DNA of 64,000 nt from Acinetobacter towneri DSM 14962 = CIP 107472 (lineage in GTDB: Bacteria > Pseudomonadota > Gammaproteobacteria > Pseudomonadales > Moraxellaceae), in the NCBI RefSeq assembly GCF_000368785.1, contig NZ_KB849689.1:240741-304740 (forward strand), in the 5' to 3' direction. This document shows, piece by piece, positions 20,748-40,370 of the stretch. The stretch's first letter is position 1. Each line of letters begins with the position of its first letter. The translations under genes and the position numbers were made by a program. The notes below the pieces were generated by a model. The model had not been told where the DNA came from. It made no database searches and was given only the letters and a program-made list of their open reading frames with translations.

Positions 20748-22628
20748 ATGCACTATCCTAAAGTTTACGATGTCATTGTTATTGGTGGCGGTCACGCAGG
20801 CACCGAAGCGGCGCTTGCAGCAGCACGTATGGGTCGTCAAACCTTACTCTTAACTCATAACATTGAGACTTTAGGGCAGATGAGCTGTAACCCTGCAATT
20901 GGCGGGATTGGTAAGTCGCATTTGGTACGTGAGATTGATGCCTTAGGCGGCGCAATGGCATTGGCTGCCGATAAAAGCGGGATTCAATTCCGTATTTTAA
21001 ACTCGCGTAAAGGTGCTGCTGTTCGTGCAACACGTGCGCAGGCAGACCGAGTTCGCTTTAAAGCTGCGATTCGCGCCACTTTAGAAAACCAAGCCAATTT
21101 AGATATTTTCCAACAAGCAGCCGATGACCTGATTGTAGGAGGCGATACTGTAAAAGGTGTAGTCACTCAAATGGGGATTCGTTTTGATGCGAAAACCGTG
21201 GTATTGACCACAGGTACATTCTTGGGTGGTGTGATTCACATCGGTTTAGAAAAATCGAGCGGTGGTCGTGCAGGCGATCCTCCATCAATTGCTTTGGCGG
21301 CACGTTTACGTGAATTAAATTTGCCTGTTGGGCGTTTAAAAACAGGTACGCCACCACGTATTGATGCACGCTCAGTCGATTTTTCGGTCATGATTCCGCA
21401 GCCAGGTGATTTCCCATCACCAACCATGTCATTCATGGGTGATGTGTCGATGCACCCTGAACAAGTGAACTGCTATATCACCCATACCAATGAACGTACT
21501 CACGAAATTATTCGTGGTGGTTTAGATCGTTCACCGATGTATACAGGTGTGATTGAAGGTGTTGGCCCACGTTACTGCCCATCGATTGAAGATAAAATTC
21601 ACCGTTTTTCTGATAAAGACTCGCATCAGGTATTTTTGGAGCCTGAAGGTTTAGATACACATGAATTGTATCCAAACGGGATTTCAACCTCTTTACCGTT
21701 TGATGTGCAGTTCGAGTTAGTTCGTTCAATTCGTGGTATGGAAAATGCGCATATTTTGCGTCCGGGCTATGCAATTGAATATGATTACTTCAATCCACAA
21801 GCCTTGAAATTCACTTTGGAAACCAAAGCCATTAATAACTTGTATTTTGCAGGTCAAATTAATGGTACGACTGGCTATGAAGAAGCGGGTGCGCAAGGTG
21901 TGTTAGCTGGTTTGAATGCGGCACGTCGCGCTTGGGATCAGGAACAATGGACACCAAAACGTGACGAAGCTTATATTGGTGTATTGGTTGATGATTTGAT
22001 CACGCTAGGTACCAAAGAACCGTACCGCATGTTTACCTCACGTGCGGAATACCGTTTGATGTTGCGTGAAGATAATGCCGATCAGCGTTTGACGCCAATT
22101 GGTCGTGAGCTTGGTTTGGTGGATGACACTCGTTGGGCAGCTTACTGTGAAAAAATGGAAGCAGTAGAACGTGAAACAGGGCGTTTACAACATTTGTGGG
22201 CTGCACCAAACAACCCAATGGGTAAAAAATTTGTTGAAATGACAGGTGCAGATTTATCTAAAGAATGTTCTGCGATTGATCTGTTAAAACGTCCAAATAT
22301 CAGTTTTGCGCAAATCGCAGAATTAACGGGTTCAGACGTTTCTGCACAAGTGGGCGATCAAATTGAAATTGCAGTGAAATATGCAGGTTATATCAACCGT
22401 CAGCATGAAGATGTCGCACAATTAAAACGCTTGGAAGAAACCAAAATCCCTGCCGATTTTGATTATGATGCAGTGTCAGGTTTATCGCGTGAAATCACGC
22501 TAAAATTGAAGCATGTTTTGCCTGAAACTTTGGCACAAGCCAGTCGTATTCCAGGTGTGACACCTGCCGCAGTTCAATTGGTGATGATCACCATTCGTAA
22601 AAATGCACAGTCACGTAAATCTGCTTAA
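20748..22628 (+). CDS. mnmG: tRNA uridine-5-carboxymethylaminomethyl modification enzyme MnmG
   Basis: With MnmE, installs the cmnm5 group on wobble uridine 34 of several tRNAs. The 626-residue FAD protein has the dinucleotide fold [19 protein letters not shown] (7-25), [15 protein letters not shown], the RVRFKAAIR region, [14 protein letters not shown] and the C-terminal GidA helical domain. I chose the ATG at 20748 (MHYPKVYD) rather than the TTG three codons earlier, to match the family start. It has its own promoter and a terminator right after the stop, so it is monocistronic. Confidence 0.96.
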
Positions 22629-22648
22629 GGTTTGATGGATTGATGAAG

Positions 22649-22678
22649 AAGCCCACAATTTAAATTGCGGGCTTTTTT
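22649..22678 (+). terminator. mnmG terminator
   Basis: AAGCCC (22649-22654) pairs with GGGCTT (22669-22674) and CAATT with AATTG inside, with one A-C mismatch. A run of six T follows. It begins 21 bases after the mnmG stop. Confidence 0.9.
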
Positions 22679-22697
22679 ATGCGCCAAAGTAAATCAG

Positions 22698-22823
22698 ATG
22701 CTAAGCAAAGAAGAAGTTGCGTATAAGAATAAATCTGATTTCGACTGCATATCTTATGATTTCACAGCTAGATCAGGAGCATTTAAAGTGACACTTATCA
22801 ACATAGATAGGAGCAAAATATGA
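22698..22823 (+). CDS. Very short ORF (41 residues), first of an overlapping pair
   Basis: An ATG at 22698 opens 41 codons encoding an acidic-then-basic peptide beginning MLSKEEVAYKNKSDFDC and ending INIDRSKI. Its TGA overlaps the ATG of the next short ORF as ATGA, the usual sign of coupled translation. The ribosome site at this ATG is weak. A later in-frame GTG (22788) has a good GGAG 8 bases upstream and would give only 11 residues. No family recognised. It could be a gene remnant, a leader peptide or a small protein. Confidence 0.35.
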   Translation: MLSKEEVAYKNKSDFDCISYDFTARSGAFKVTLINIDRSKI

Positions 22824-22894
22824 CTTTAAAAAGCATTCGTTATAGTACAGCCGAGCTAGCATGCCTACGTTGTATGATGCCGAGTCAATGTTAA
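22820..22894 (+). CDS. Very short Cys-containing ORF (24 residues)
   Basis: The ATG at 22820 has a strong ribosome site, AGGAG about 7 bases upstream, and overlaps the stop of the preceding short ORF by ATGA. The 24-residue product begins MTLKSIRYSTAEL and contains CLRC and a terminal Cys, a possible metal-binding pattern. A strong rho-independent terminator follows 52 bases later. The pair thus sits between two terminators (22649-22678 and 22946-22970), like a small transcription unit. No promoter could be fixed by eye. Function unknown. Confidence 0.4.
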   Translation: MTLKSIRYSTAELACLRCMMPSQC

Positions 22895-22945: not shown

Positions 22946-22970
22946 GCCCCAATATATTTGGGGCTTTTTT
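22946..22970 (+). terminator. Terminator of the short-ORF unit
   Basis: GCCCCAA (22946-22952) and TTGGGGC (22958-22964) with loop TATAT, followed by six T. It overlaps the stop codon of the convergent WYL regulator gene. Orientation and T-run point to plus-strand transcription ending here. Confidence 0.88.
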
Positions 22971-23967
22971 ATTCCTGAGTTTGATGCACCGCATTGGCAA
23001 CTTCTACAGGTTCAATCTGAATTAGCTTTTTACCAAAACTACGCAACCACCAAACCAATTGTGAGGTAAACGGCACAGTGGCAGTCACCAACACATTACC
23101 ATTTTCCAGTGTTTCCATAGTTTGATCTTTGCTTAATTGGCTTTCATCGAAGTATATGGCATCAGCTTTTTGCATGGTAAGTTTGAGCTGAATATTTTCA
23201 GTAGCTTTACTGAAATCGACTCTAAAACCTAATTCGCCAGATTCAATATAGGCATCAATATCAAAATTAACAGGATGCAAGGCGCGTGAATCTAAAACTT
23301 TGGCTGCTTTAAAACGATGCAGGGCAAAGGTTTGAATGTCGGTTTTGTCAAATCGAGTACAGATTAAATAAATCACCGCACCTTTTTGCACCAAAGCCAA
23401 AGGATTCAGCACATAAGTTTTTTCTTCGCCTGAATTGCTGCGTGATTGATAAATACATTCTAGTTGTTTGTCTTGGAGCAAGCCTTCATATATCGCCTGT
23501 TGTGCATTGCGGTCTACGACTGGTGGAATTAAAGGTTGTGTTGCAGGCACAATTCGCACACGATTAATCCATTGGCGGACATTGTTTTGGGTCGATAGAC
23601 TGCGTCGTGCCAAATCAAACCATGGGTTCATTTCTTCAATCAAACTTGGCGGCAGCAGATGTTTTAAATGTTCCTCGACCATCATAAACGTTACCGCTTG
23701 AGAGCTGGTCATGTGCGGTAAACTTTGAATCGGTGCATCTGAACGCCAGCGCCAACCTTGTGGTACGGTACCATTACTTTCAATTGGAAAGCGCTGAGAA
23801 ATTTGATTTAAGTCACGTTGAATCGTACGCAAACTAATGTCGATACCTTCACGTTGCAGGACATCGTGTAATTCACGTGTGCCCATCCATTTACCTGTAG
23901 AAAGGCGCGATAAAATTTGCCATTGGCGATATAAACTATTCGATGTTTCTTTTTCTTGTATAGACAT
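22969..23967 (-). CDS. WYL-domain transcriptional regulator
   Basis: A 332-residue regulator of the YafY/WYL type. The N-terminal winged helix-turn-helix (about 12-65) contains LSTGKWMGTRELHDVLQREG and ISLRTIQRDLNQIS. The C-terminal WYL module (about 160-235) is relaxed: KTYVLNPLALVQKGAVIYLICTRF replaces the usual W-Y-L triad. A WCX-like tail follows. Such proteins bind DNA and sense a nucleic-acid or nucleotide ligand; several regulate DNA damage or phage defence genes. The ATG at 23967 is preferred to a TTG two codons upstream. No target is evident from neighbours. Confidence 0.82.
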   Translation of the reverse strand: MSIQEKETSNSLYRQWQILSRLSTGKWMGTRELHDVLQREGIDISLRTIQRDLNQISQRFPIESNGTVPQGWRWRSDAPIQSLPHMTSSQAVTFMMVEEHLKHLLPPSLIEEMNPWFDLARRSLSTQNNVRQWINRVRIVPATQPLIPPVVDRNAQQAIYEGLLQDKQLECIYQSRSNSGEEKTYVLNPLALVQKGAVIYLICTRFDKTDIQTFALHRFKAAKVLDSRALHPVNFDIDAYIESGELGFRVDFSKATENIQLKLTMQKADAIYFDESQLSKDQTMETLENGNVLVTATVPFTSQLVWWLRSFGKKLIQIEPVEVANAVHQTQE

Positions 23968-24365
23968 ATTCAATATTTACTAGGTCAATTCATACGGATG
24001 AAAACTTGTTCTTCCACACAATAAGAAAACTCGGAATGATTAGCAAGTTTTTTACTGAAAAAGGGCAAAATATAACCGCAGATTTTGCAGTAAATATCAC
24101 AAAATTTGGACGGGCAAAGTTAATCAAATAATAGAAGTGAATCAGAAACTATGACCTCAAGCCATACTTGGATCAATTAGAAAAGCAAGATTGAATAGTT
24201 GTGTTTAAGTGAAAACCCGTCATTGTTTTGTATGGTAGATACAGGTTTATGTAAATAAAAGCGGTCTGAGTGGATGAGTGCTGTAGGTTAATTGGGCAAG
24301 GCGATTGAGGTGCTTTATCGCGATGAATTATCAACAGACCTTAGAGTTAGGAGGATGAAACAACC
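23968..24365. other. 398-base spacer between WYL regulator and alpha-E-like gene
   Basis: Divergent promoters for the flanking genes must lie here. An AGGAGG ribosome site is at 24349-24354, immediately followed by an ATG that opens only four codons and overlaps the GTG start of the next gene. I see no other repeats or ORFs. Confidence 0.4.
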
Positions 24366-39036: not shown

Positions 39037-40110
39037 TTATTCCCCTTGAGAAGCAGTCGCATGTTCAACTGCTACATGAGTTTCAGAAGCAGGCGCTTCA
39101 CCAGCCACTACAGGAGCTGAATGGTCAGCACCATGGTAGTTACTCATATAGTTATTGATCACTGATTCAAACAAGCCTTGCTCAACAGAAGAGTAATAAG
39201 TCACAGGATGTGGCTGAGTCTTATATGGACCTTCTTTTAAAGCCGTTGCAGCAAGTTTTTTCTCTAATTCAGTTTTGGCGTTACGAACCATTGCATCAAT
39301 TTGTTTCTGTGAACGGTTACCGTCACGTAAAGAAGCAAATTCAGCTTGATCTAAAACTGTTTTTTGAACAGCTTGAGGATTGATAGTCGTACCTTGACCT
39401 GCTTTAACAGCTGTTACCCATTGCTCAAAATCAGCTTGAGTTACAGAGTGAGCTTTAAAGCGCATTTGCGAGAAACCATAACCTGAGTAGTTAGATGAGA
39501 AACCACGGAATTCGCCCGTGTTGTCTGCTAAAACGTTCAAGTGAGTTTGCATACCCGCCATTGCATAAATCTGACCAGATAATGCAGGGATAAAGAACGA
39601 GTTCATTGTGAAGTTAGATGTTAAACGTAAGCTTACAGGCGTTTGCTCTGGGAAGCGTAATTCGTTAACAGTAGCAATGTTCTGTTCTGGGTAGATGAAG
39701 ATCCATTTAAATTGTTCAGCAATAACTTGAACAGTTAAAGGAGCTTTTTCGGATTCTAGCGGACGGTAAGGGTCGTACTTGTGGGAACCCCACCAAGTTA
39801 ACCAAGCTAAAATACAAATAATAATAACAGGTATACCCCATACTACAATTTCAATTGCAGTAGAGTGTGACCATGTTGGTTGATAGTCTGCGTCTTTATT
39901 CGATGCGCGATATTTCCAACCGAACCACAATGCCATAATTGCAGATGGAATAACCACCAATAGCATTAGGTAAATCGCAGTCATCATCAGGTTACTTTGA
40001 CCTGCTGCAACTGGACCTTTTGAGTTCAGAAGTACTAAATCACCGCCACACCCAGTTAAGAGTGCAGCCATCGTAGATAAAGACAATACAGCTAAAATCG
40101 TTTGTCTCAT
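39037..40110 (-). CDS. cyoA: Cytochrome bo3 oxidase subunit II
   Basis: A 357-residue lipoprotein: lipobox LLTGC (Cys21), two membrane helices, and a periplasmic cupredoxin-like domain (EQFKWIFIYPEQNIATVNELRFPE). The CuA-binding residues of cytochrome c oxidases are missing, as expected for a quinol oxidase. It has an Ala/His-rich C-terminal tail longer than in E. coli. First gene of the operon, with a 302-base spacer upstream. Confidence 0.95.
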   Translation of the reverse strand: MRQTILAVLSLSTMAALLTGCGGDLVLLNSKGPVAAGQSNLMMTAIYLMLLVVIPSAIMALWFGWKYRASNKDADYQPTWSHSTAIEIVVWGIPVIIICILAWLTWWGSHKYDPYRPLESEKAPLTVQVIAEQFKWIFIYPEQNIATVNELRFPEQTPVSLRLTSNFTMNSFFIPALSGQIYAMAGMQTHLNVLADNTGEFRGFSSNYSGYGFSQMRFKAHSVTQADFEQWVTAVKAGQGTTINPQAVQKTVLDQAEFASLRDGNRSQKQIDAMVRNAKTELEKKLAATALKEGPYKTQPHPVTYYSSVEQGLFESVINNYMSNYHGADHSAPVVAGEAPASETHVAVEHATASQGE

Positions 40111-40370
40111 TTTACAACCTCGGTGAAGAGTCCCATTCCCTAATTTAATATGGGATAGCGATTAAAGTGTCGCATGATTAAAAAGACATCAAAAAAGATG
40201 AAAAAGTCTTCTTAATCATCGGACACCGCTACGTTGTAGGGCATTATGCCTGATATCGACAAACTAAGCTACACATAAAGCGGCTTTAAGTGGAGGGAAT
40301 AAAAACCAATTTTTATACTCGGAATTATTTGTGTTAATTTTAATTTATTTATATTTATCAATATTATAAG
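40111..40370. other. Promoter region of cyoABCDE
   Basis: An AT-rich spacer between cyoA and the RDD-gene terminator. An imperfect palindrome-like stretch lies near 40220-40240 (ACCGCTACGTTGTAGGGC). No ORF is seen. Oxygen- or iron-dependent regulation is known for cyo genes, but I cannot assign a site. Confidence 0.4.

Follow-up and report, generated by a model that had tools for sequence, protein, structure and literature searches.

A probable microprotein gene convergent with a WYL regulator gene in Acinetobacter

What is encoded in the gap that separates mnmG from a WYL-family regulator gene in Acinetobacter towneri? The gap lies in a stretch of 64,000 nucleotides from strain DSM 14962 = CIP 107472 (contig NZ_KB849689.1, positions 240,741 to 304,740), which we call the window and number from its first letter; the genome to which it belongs (G000 in our set) is 2.95 Mb in size. 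An earlier note on this DNA had seen here two very short open reading frames, ORF1 and ORF2, overlapping by ATGA and set between terminators, and had proposed that they form a small transcription unit of their own. As we now read it, the locus is made up of the following features.

Ending at 22628, forward strand: mnmG (TIGR00136)
22644-22679, forward strand: intrinsic terminator of mnmG and upstream border of the unit (-17.3 kcal/mol, z -5.4)
22698-22823, forward strand: ORF1 of the earlier note, here taken as putative promoter and leader of the micro-gene, not as a gene
22761-22789, forward strand: predicted promoter, -35 TTCACA, 17-nt spacer, -10 TAAAGT (scan site and conservation)
22809-22813, forward strand: Shine-Dalgarno sequence AGGAG, 6 nt before the ATG of ORF2
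22820-22894, forward strand: ORF2, the micro-ORF of 24 residues, MTLKSIRYSTAELACLRCMMPSQC, with residues 1-15 as its core
22946-22970, forward strand: intrinsic terminator of the micro-gene (-13.2 kcal/mol, z -3.4)
22969-23973, reverse strand: HTH-WYL-WCX regulator gene (PF13280, PF25583), convergent, the usual neighbour of the micro-gene

Both frames were recovered open where the note had placed them, ORF2 as 24 codons and a stop with the AGGAG ascribed to it. Their pairing as two overlapping genes, in contrast, does not hold. Of 139 genomes, 3 have a frame of 41 codons or longer that stops at the TGA of ORF1. In the 60 nt that precede ORF2, pS and pN both come to about 0.6 whichever of the three frames is read, and no coding signal is seen; because coding selection is lacking and the long frame is so rarely kept, we reject the two-gene reading and do not regard ORF1 as a gene. 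The first start codon after a stop in its frame is a TTG at 22665, within the mnmG terminator, and the sigma-70-type promoter falls inside ORF1, which is, as judged from these comparisons, a chance protein reading of the putative promoter and leader that belong to ORF2. Nor does the ATGA overlap carry the meaning that the note had given it, since codon 2 of ORF2 is ACN in 106 of 106 distinct cores and an ATG-ACN start forces the overlap, ATGAC containing TGA.

ORF2 has a core with the consensus M-T-x-K-x-I-R-[YF]-N-x-x-[ED]-L-A-C (15 residues). Across 106 distinct 45-nt cores from 139 genomes its frame gives pS 0.757 and pN 0.178, figures that describe retained copies, the sequences being related and genomes that have lost the core being left out. 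A first test, on 103 distinct cores from 136 genomes, had given 0.757 and 0.174; the repeat joined three genomes found by profile to the 136 found by a residue pattern. Because that pattern imposed positions 1, 4, 6, 7, 8, 12, 13 and 14, and so fixed eight of the fifteen, the test was redone on free codons. The seven codons outside the pattern give pS 0.714 and pN 0.273 (106 cores), and T2, N9 and C15 alone, none of them imposed, give 0.724 and 0.003 (106 cores). As a frame control on the 103 cores, pS is lower than pN in the two other sense frames and in two of the antisense frames; the remaining antisense frame gives 0.54 and 0.20, its variable positions being the third positions of ORF2. 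The synonymous bias in substitution that the note had proposed as a check is thus present for ORF2 and absent for ORF1.

Cysteine 15 is found in 105 of the 106 cores, with TGC as its codon in 101, and a further cysteine lies beyond the core in 109 of the 139 peptides, whose length ranges from 14 to 25 residues. A site resembling a Shine-Dalgarno sequence (at least a 4-mer) precedes the frame in 134 of the 139 genomes. Scored on a residue profile that was made from 57 peptides and excludes its own copy, the ORF2 of the window reaches 46 bits and is the sole stop-free place above 5 bits in the six frames of the 64 kb. We have little doubt that ORF2 represents a real microprotein gene; the note's view that a very short cysteine-containing peptide is encoded here agrees with the purifying selection on this frame.

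Searches of family libraries did not place the locus in a described family. Against Pfam, ORF1, ORF2 and related frames gave nothing credible (best E 0.03); ORF1 and ORF2 had no match in NCBIfam; and no Rfam family scored above its gathering score at the locus (best sub-threshold E 0.02). The sole Rfam match above that score in the window is AbsR11 (RF02608), a known Acinetobacter sRNA, at 40086-40288 on the reverse strand (185.8 bits). Among 175 genomes from Acinetobacter, four others show similarity to the gap at the DNA level (G152, 84%; G029, 83%; G163, 72%; G090, 70%), the remaining matches in the 175 being pieces of 26-83 nt. The DNA of the gap had no match among plasmids, and among phages a 35-nt match within the mnmG terminator stretch, in two records; the ORF2 peptide had no phage match. 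The A. baumannii-type peptide matched three plasmid records, which are 3.7-4.1 Mb long and chromosome-like. NZ_CP104448.1, NZ_CP064203.1 and NZ_CP077849.1 are filed in PLSDB as plasmids and look like A. baumannii chromosomes; mnmG and the WYL gene were seen in the first two. In PLSDB, two of the three lack annotation at and near the micro-ORF.

How widely is the micro-gene distributed? The WYL gene was used to find loci because a short frame and a promoter-like motif recur beside it. It is present in 171 of the 175 Acinetobacter genomes (E <1e-70), and the same four genomes (G012, G030, G032 and G176) lack it at E 1e-20. The 3' side of the gene was taken for 150 of the 171 genomes and the remaining 21 were searched separately; the micro-ORF stands beside it and convergent with it in 136 of the 150 by pattern, in three more by profile, in five of the 21 and in G086, that is, in 145. 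Sampling of loci began from WYL, whereas a profile search of whole genomes did not. That search matched 154 of 348 Moraxellaceae genomes at E <=0.05, 152 of them within Acinetobacter (core profile A3; 152 of 175, nearly always one match per genome), and still 145 of the 152 micro-genes are linked to a convergent WYL gene. The two weak matches among the 173 Moraxellaceae genomes from outside Acinetobacter (E 0.014 and 0.017) are regarded as chance, and 30 WYL loci outside the genus held no micro-ORF within the flank examined. By tblastn with a joined peptide, 158 of the 175 genomes matched at E up to 1, many of them weakly. Conservation within Acinetobacter, which the note had wished to see for both frames and their overlap, extends to the frame of ORF2 and not to ORF1 or the overlap.

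Linkage was counted also for G081 and G148, in which the distance from micro-gene to WYL gene is 2.8 and 7.4 kb; in G085, G087, G167, G193 and G194 it is about 1.3 kb. In G086 (L288), the one genome whose inserted stretch was read for genes, the 1.2-1.3 kb or so between the two contains, on the strand of WYL, a frame of 325 residues. Among genomes not counted as linked, G113, G014 and G118 carry the micro-gene elsewhere than the WYL gene, G019 and G147 have the WYL gene near a contig end, and for G112 and G182 (E 0.003 and 0.035) the place of the match is not listed. All four WYL-less genomes are without a micro-gene match, G030 being 65% complete and G012 being judged by its absence from the match list. 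Among the best 80 of 128 named loci from GTDB contigs, many of which are the same genomes as those of our labelled set, 76 have the micro-ORF beside WYL and four do not (L301, L303, L308 and L343); bearers include A. calcoaceticus, A. pittii, A. junii, A. haemolyticus, A. lwoffii and A. indicus.

No profile match was obtained in 23 of the 175 genomes. Inspection of the WYL loci of eight of these found that G117 (L191), G120 (L197), G121 (L199) and G177 (L138) keep a Shine-Dalgarno sequence and, in the same place, a promoter-like -10 and a different, cysteine-containing short ORF; that G096 has a diverged frame; and that G071, G088 and G094 have nothing recognisable.

The note's proposal of an independent small transcription unit is supported, the gap being flanked by two terminators and ORF2 having its own predicted promoter. 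Both terminators that the note had described were recovered as folds, and the consensus terminator scan of the window lists the downstream one only. Across the genus the promoter takes the form TTATTTCACA-N17-TATAkT, followed by a GAGG site and ATG, with the ATG of ORF2 about 61 nt (52-65) past the TTTCACA of the motif. The profile comes from the 96 of 136 genomes that match a strict motif pattern (90 distinct windows); by inspection, many of the other 40 have variants such as TTTCTCA and a few have no clear motif. Because the promoter scan of the window is no richer than in shuffled sequence (3 sites against 3.7), the weight of the window's promoter rests on its conservation. Transcription would begin at about 22796. 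The sigma-70-type promoter would give a short transcript, about 175 nt in the window and about 230 nt in most species, consisting in order of a leader of about 25 nt, one micro-ORF of 15-25 codons in most cases, a long hairpin whose loop is G-rich (in most species) and the intrinsic terminator.

A leader or attenuator acting in cis, which the note had also considered, is unlikely because the next gene, that for the WYL protein, is convergent at 145 of the 152 micro-genes and no co-directional gene was seen downstream, with the inserted stretches read for genes in G086. Relocated micro-genes are likewise convergent with their neighbours: with ErpA in G113 (L285) and G014 (L286), and in G118 (L287) with a cysteine desulfurase that resembles family-2A encapsulin cargo. 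These neighbours are sulfur and Fe-S genes. On the promoter side the longest frame varies, forming 19 clusters over 138 genomes; the largest are glutamate-synthase-like (41), mnmG (38), ABM-domain (16), MFS-like (10, a label just below the Pfam cut-off) and a further cluster of 10 that we take by eye to be purA; eleven clusters come from a single genome each, and several of these may be chance frames.

The region after ORF2 contains a second conserved element in most species. In 136 distinct regions following the ORF2 stop (the first 110 nt before the terminator, or, in a few without a located terminator, possibly including the terminator itself), uninterrupted stems of at least 8 pairs occur in 116, against 43.9 expected from shuffles, and stems of at least 12 pairs in 60, against 0.95. 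The 116 stem regions have 80 different 5' arms, implying that pairing is kept while the sequence changes, and 95 of them have a loop with GGG in it or at its edge; GGGG occurs in 101 of 133 regions after ORF2, against 29 expected. Folding of the whole region is only modestly better than in shuffles (median z -1.8, with 41% below -2, in 128 regions) and close to that of an upstream control (median z -1.2, 39% below -2), which includes terminators and coding sequence. The 3' hairpin thus appears as an element conserved beside the ORF in the genus, through compensating changes, and not in the clade of the window (G000, G029, G152, G163 and G090), where it is absent from all five genomes (longest stems 5-8 pairs, z above 0).

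Taken as a whole, the locus is best explained as an independent, translated microprotein gene of Acinetobacter, an account whose chances, taken together with the mechanism given below, we regard as evenly balanced. The micro-gene would then be transcribed, translated and functional: a soluble cytosolic peptide with the fixed core MTxKxIR[YF]NxxELAC would exert its effect in trans, its target being a protein or the ribosome, and in species that have the hairpin this would be a separate RNA module. As to mechanism, a translated small RNA of dual function, supplying both microprotein and regulatory hairpin, is our tentative choice; it fits best because an ORF followed by a rapidly changing yet paired hairpin with a G-rich loop is the commonest arrangement. 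The note's option of a dual-function RNA finds a counterpart in the conserved stems of the genus, but not in the window's own clade, which lacks the hairpin. A peptide of about 17 residues that is kept across most species of Acinetobacter, A. baumannii included, and whose core is fixed and whose neighbour is usually the same, is likely to be important to these bacteria.

One alternative is a plain small mRNA, whose function lies in the peptide alone while the hairpin serves as a 3' stability element. The frame does persist where the hairpin has been lost, as in the window's copy. Against this, stems that change fast and yet remain complementary, around a G-rich loop, look like something beyond mere stability, and we consider this explanation possible but rather unlikely.

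Is the micro-gene instead a decayed remnant, as the note had allowed? For the genus this is rejected, because ORF2 is under purifying selection; for the window's clade some decay is evident. The window's WYL protein is 98% identical to those of A. towneri 5-2Ac02 and Acinetobacter sp. UBA801. In the former (G029, L056) the start of ORF2 is ATC, with the rest of the frame conserved, and in the latter (G152) codon 15 is a stop; elsewhere, G168 (L094) has an ATT start to an otherwise conserved frame. As two of the five clade frames are damaged and G168 has ATT in place of ATG, some lineages may be able to do without the peptide. The window's core also carries the sole serine at position 9, the other 105 cores having asparagine. 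On the other hand, frame, Shine-Dalgarno sequence, promoter and terminator are intact in the window, the core reaches its 46 bits on the profile, and, apart from codons 5 and 9, its core differs from those of G163 and G090 by synonymous changes only. A remnant in the window's species is thus unlikely; the RNA module may have been lost in this clade, leaving the peptide part, which is itself damaged in two sister genomes. The function of the window's copy is nevertheless less certain than that of the genus, because its frame is intact but the hairpin is absent and two of the five clade copies are damaged.

A further possibility is that the WYL protein, by analogy with DriD a single-stranded-DNA-sensing activator, switches on the micro-gene. 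In Caulobacter, according to the available parts of the sources, DriD switches on the small division inhibitor DidA (PMC12340889, PMC4211646). The linkage to the WYL gene, the lack of a micro-gene in all four WYL-less genomes, and the conservation seen at the -35 element and immediately before it are in keeping with such a regulon, as is a Foldseek search with the predicted WYL fold, which ranks DriD first, followed by PafBC, CapW and BrxR. However, the model has a pTM of 0.54 and 16-18% identity to DriD, so that only the ranking was used, and searching the PDB by sequence with this WYL protein gave no credible relative. DriD sites are given as ATACGAC-N7-GTCGTAT lying over poor -35 elements (PMC12340889, in the part available), whereas the -35 of the micro-gene matches the consensus at 5 of 6 positions, and no palindrome of this type was found in the conservation profile of its promoter. 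In 35 of 48 distinct regions upstream of the WYL gene itself, TATTGT is conserved together with a TTG-type -35, but the TTTCACA of the micro-gene promoter appears in 1 of the 48 and no shared motif was found. With the micro-gene also standing away from WYL in G113, G014 and G118, activation by the WYL protein seems improbable, although the linkage makes this DriD-like regulator the first place to seek the control of the micro-gene.

Translation might, alternatively, gate the RNA: pausing of the ribosome at cysteine codons, or the nascent peptide, would remodel the hairpin, so that cysteine or sulfur status controls the RNA. The near-invariance of C15 and of its TGC codon, the further cysteine of most peptides, the cysteine retained in each of the diverged short ORFs of G117, G120, G121 and G177, and the convergence of relocated copies on ErpA and cysteine desulfurase all point this way. 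Yet there is no downstream gene in cis, the conserved residues reach far past the cysteine, the window's clade has no hairpin, and two relocations (G113/G014 and G118) can be coincidence; we think this quite unlikely. Very unlikely in our estimation is a genus-defining two-part gene in which cysteine or sulfur status is sensed through translation of the peptide, or through its nascent chain, and a trans-acting RNA with the G-rich-loop hairpin is switched accordingly. We know of no example of such a translation-gated small RNA, and no relative of the two-part gene was found in this analysis. If real, it would have escaped notice because of the extreme shortness of the ORF and because the predicted sRNA started within it.

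A type I toxin can be set aside, the peptides not being hydrophobic and membrane-spanning by inspection.

How does the micro-gene compare with known systems? Precursors of methanobactin-type RiPPs are short, start with MTxK and have a cysteine near the C-terminus, and the micro-peptide is like them in all three respects. An MNIO-modified RiPP of this type is nevertheless rejected by the distribution of PF05114 (MNIO), which is absent from the window's genome, occurs in 50 of the 175 Acinetobacter genomes, and is also found in at least four genomes without the micro-gene (G030, G032, G176 and G123). One Acinetobacter genome, G027, has three PF05114 matches.

The DriD/DidA pair of Caulobacter, as far as its published description was available, resembles this locus in having both a WYL activator fold and a gene for a small protein, but the micro-gene promoter has no DriD-type operator. 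SgrS/SgrT is an example of a dual-function sRNA. VcdRP and SR1, in the accessible portions of their descriptions, resemble the micro-gene in that a tiny ORF and an RNA module share one short transcript; unlike such RNAs, the micro-gene has no known base-pairing target and an ORF core of 15 residues, the comparison here being with family libraries only.

The closest counterpart is one already predicted in A. baumannii. In the part of Sharma et al. 2014 (PMC3976366) available to us, AbsR-10 is a predicted sRNA of strain ATCC 17978, 174 nt long, which lies on the strand of GidA, 195 nt from it and 17 nt from a 'transcriptional factor'; it is described there as non-coding and is not among the ten sRNAs tested by Northern blot. 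In A. baumannii NZ_CP064203.1 the gap between mnmG and the WYL gene is 386 nt, equal to 195+174+17, and the micro-ORF starts 174 nt past mnmG; in NZ_CP104448.1 the gap is 388 nt and the start lies 176 nt after mnmG. AbsR-10 is thus very probably this micro-gene with its 5' end placed some 21 nt inside the frame, a match made on these two records and not on ATCC 17978 itself. Because the listed 5' end lies within the micro-ORF, the prediction would have missed the start codon. The literature we searched, in which subscription papers are thinly covered, gave no description of the peptide; the unhyphenated 'absr10' was not found as a whole word, the form in PMC3976366 being AbsR-10, and 'WYL' and 'mnmG' are absent from the main texts of two A. 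baumannii interactome papers. A 2016 sRNA catalogue of A. baumannii AB5075 (PMC5320573), in its accessible part, checked for ORFs of at least 30 residues, a limit below which the micro-peptide falls. AbsR-10 and the micro-gene therefore agree in locus, strand and lengths and differ in that the former was called non-coding, in the available text at least; the conserved frame turns this candidate non-coding sRNA into a coding gene that is directly testable.
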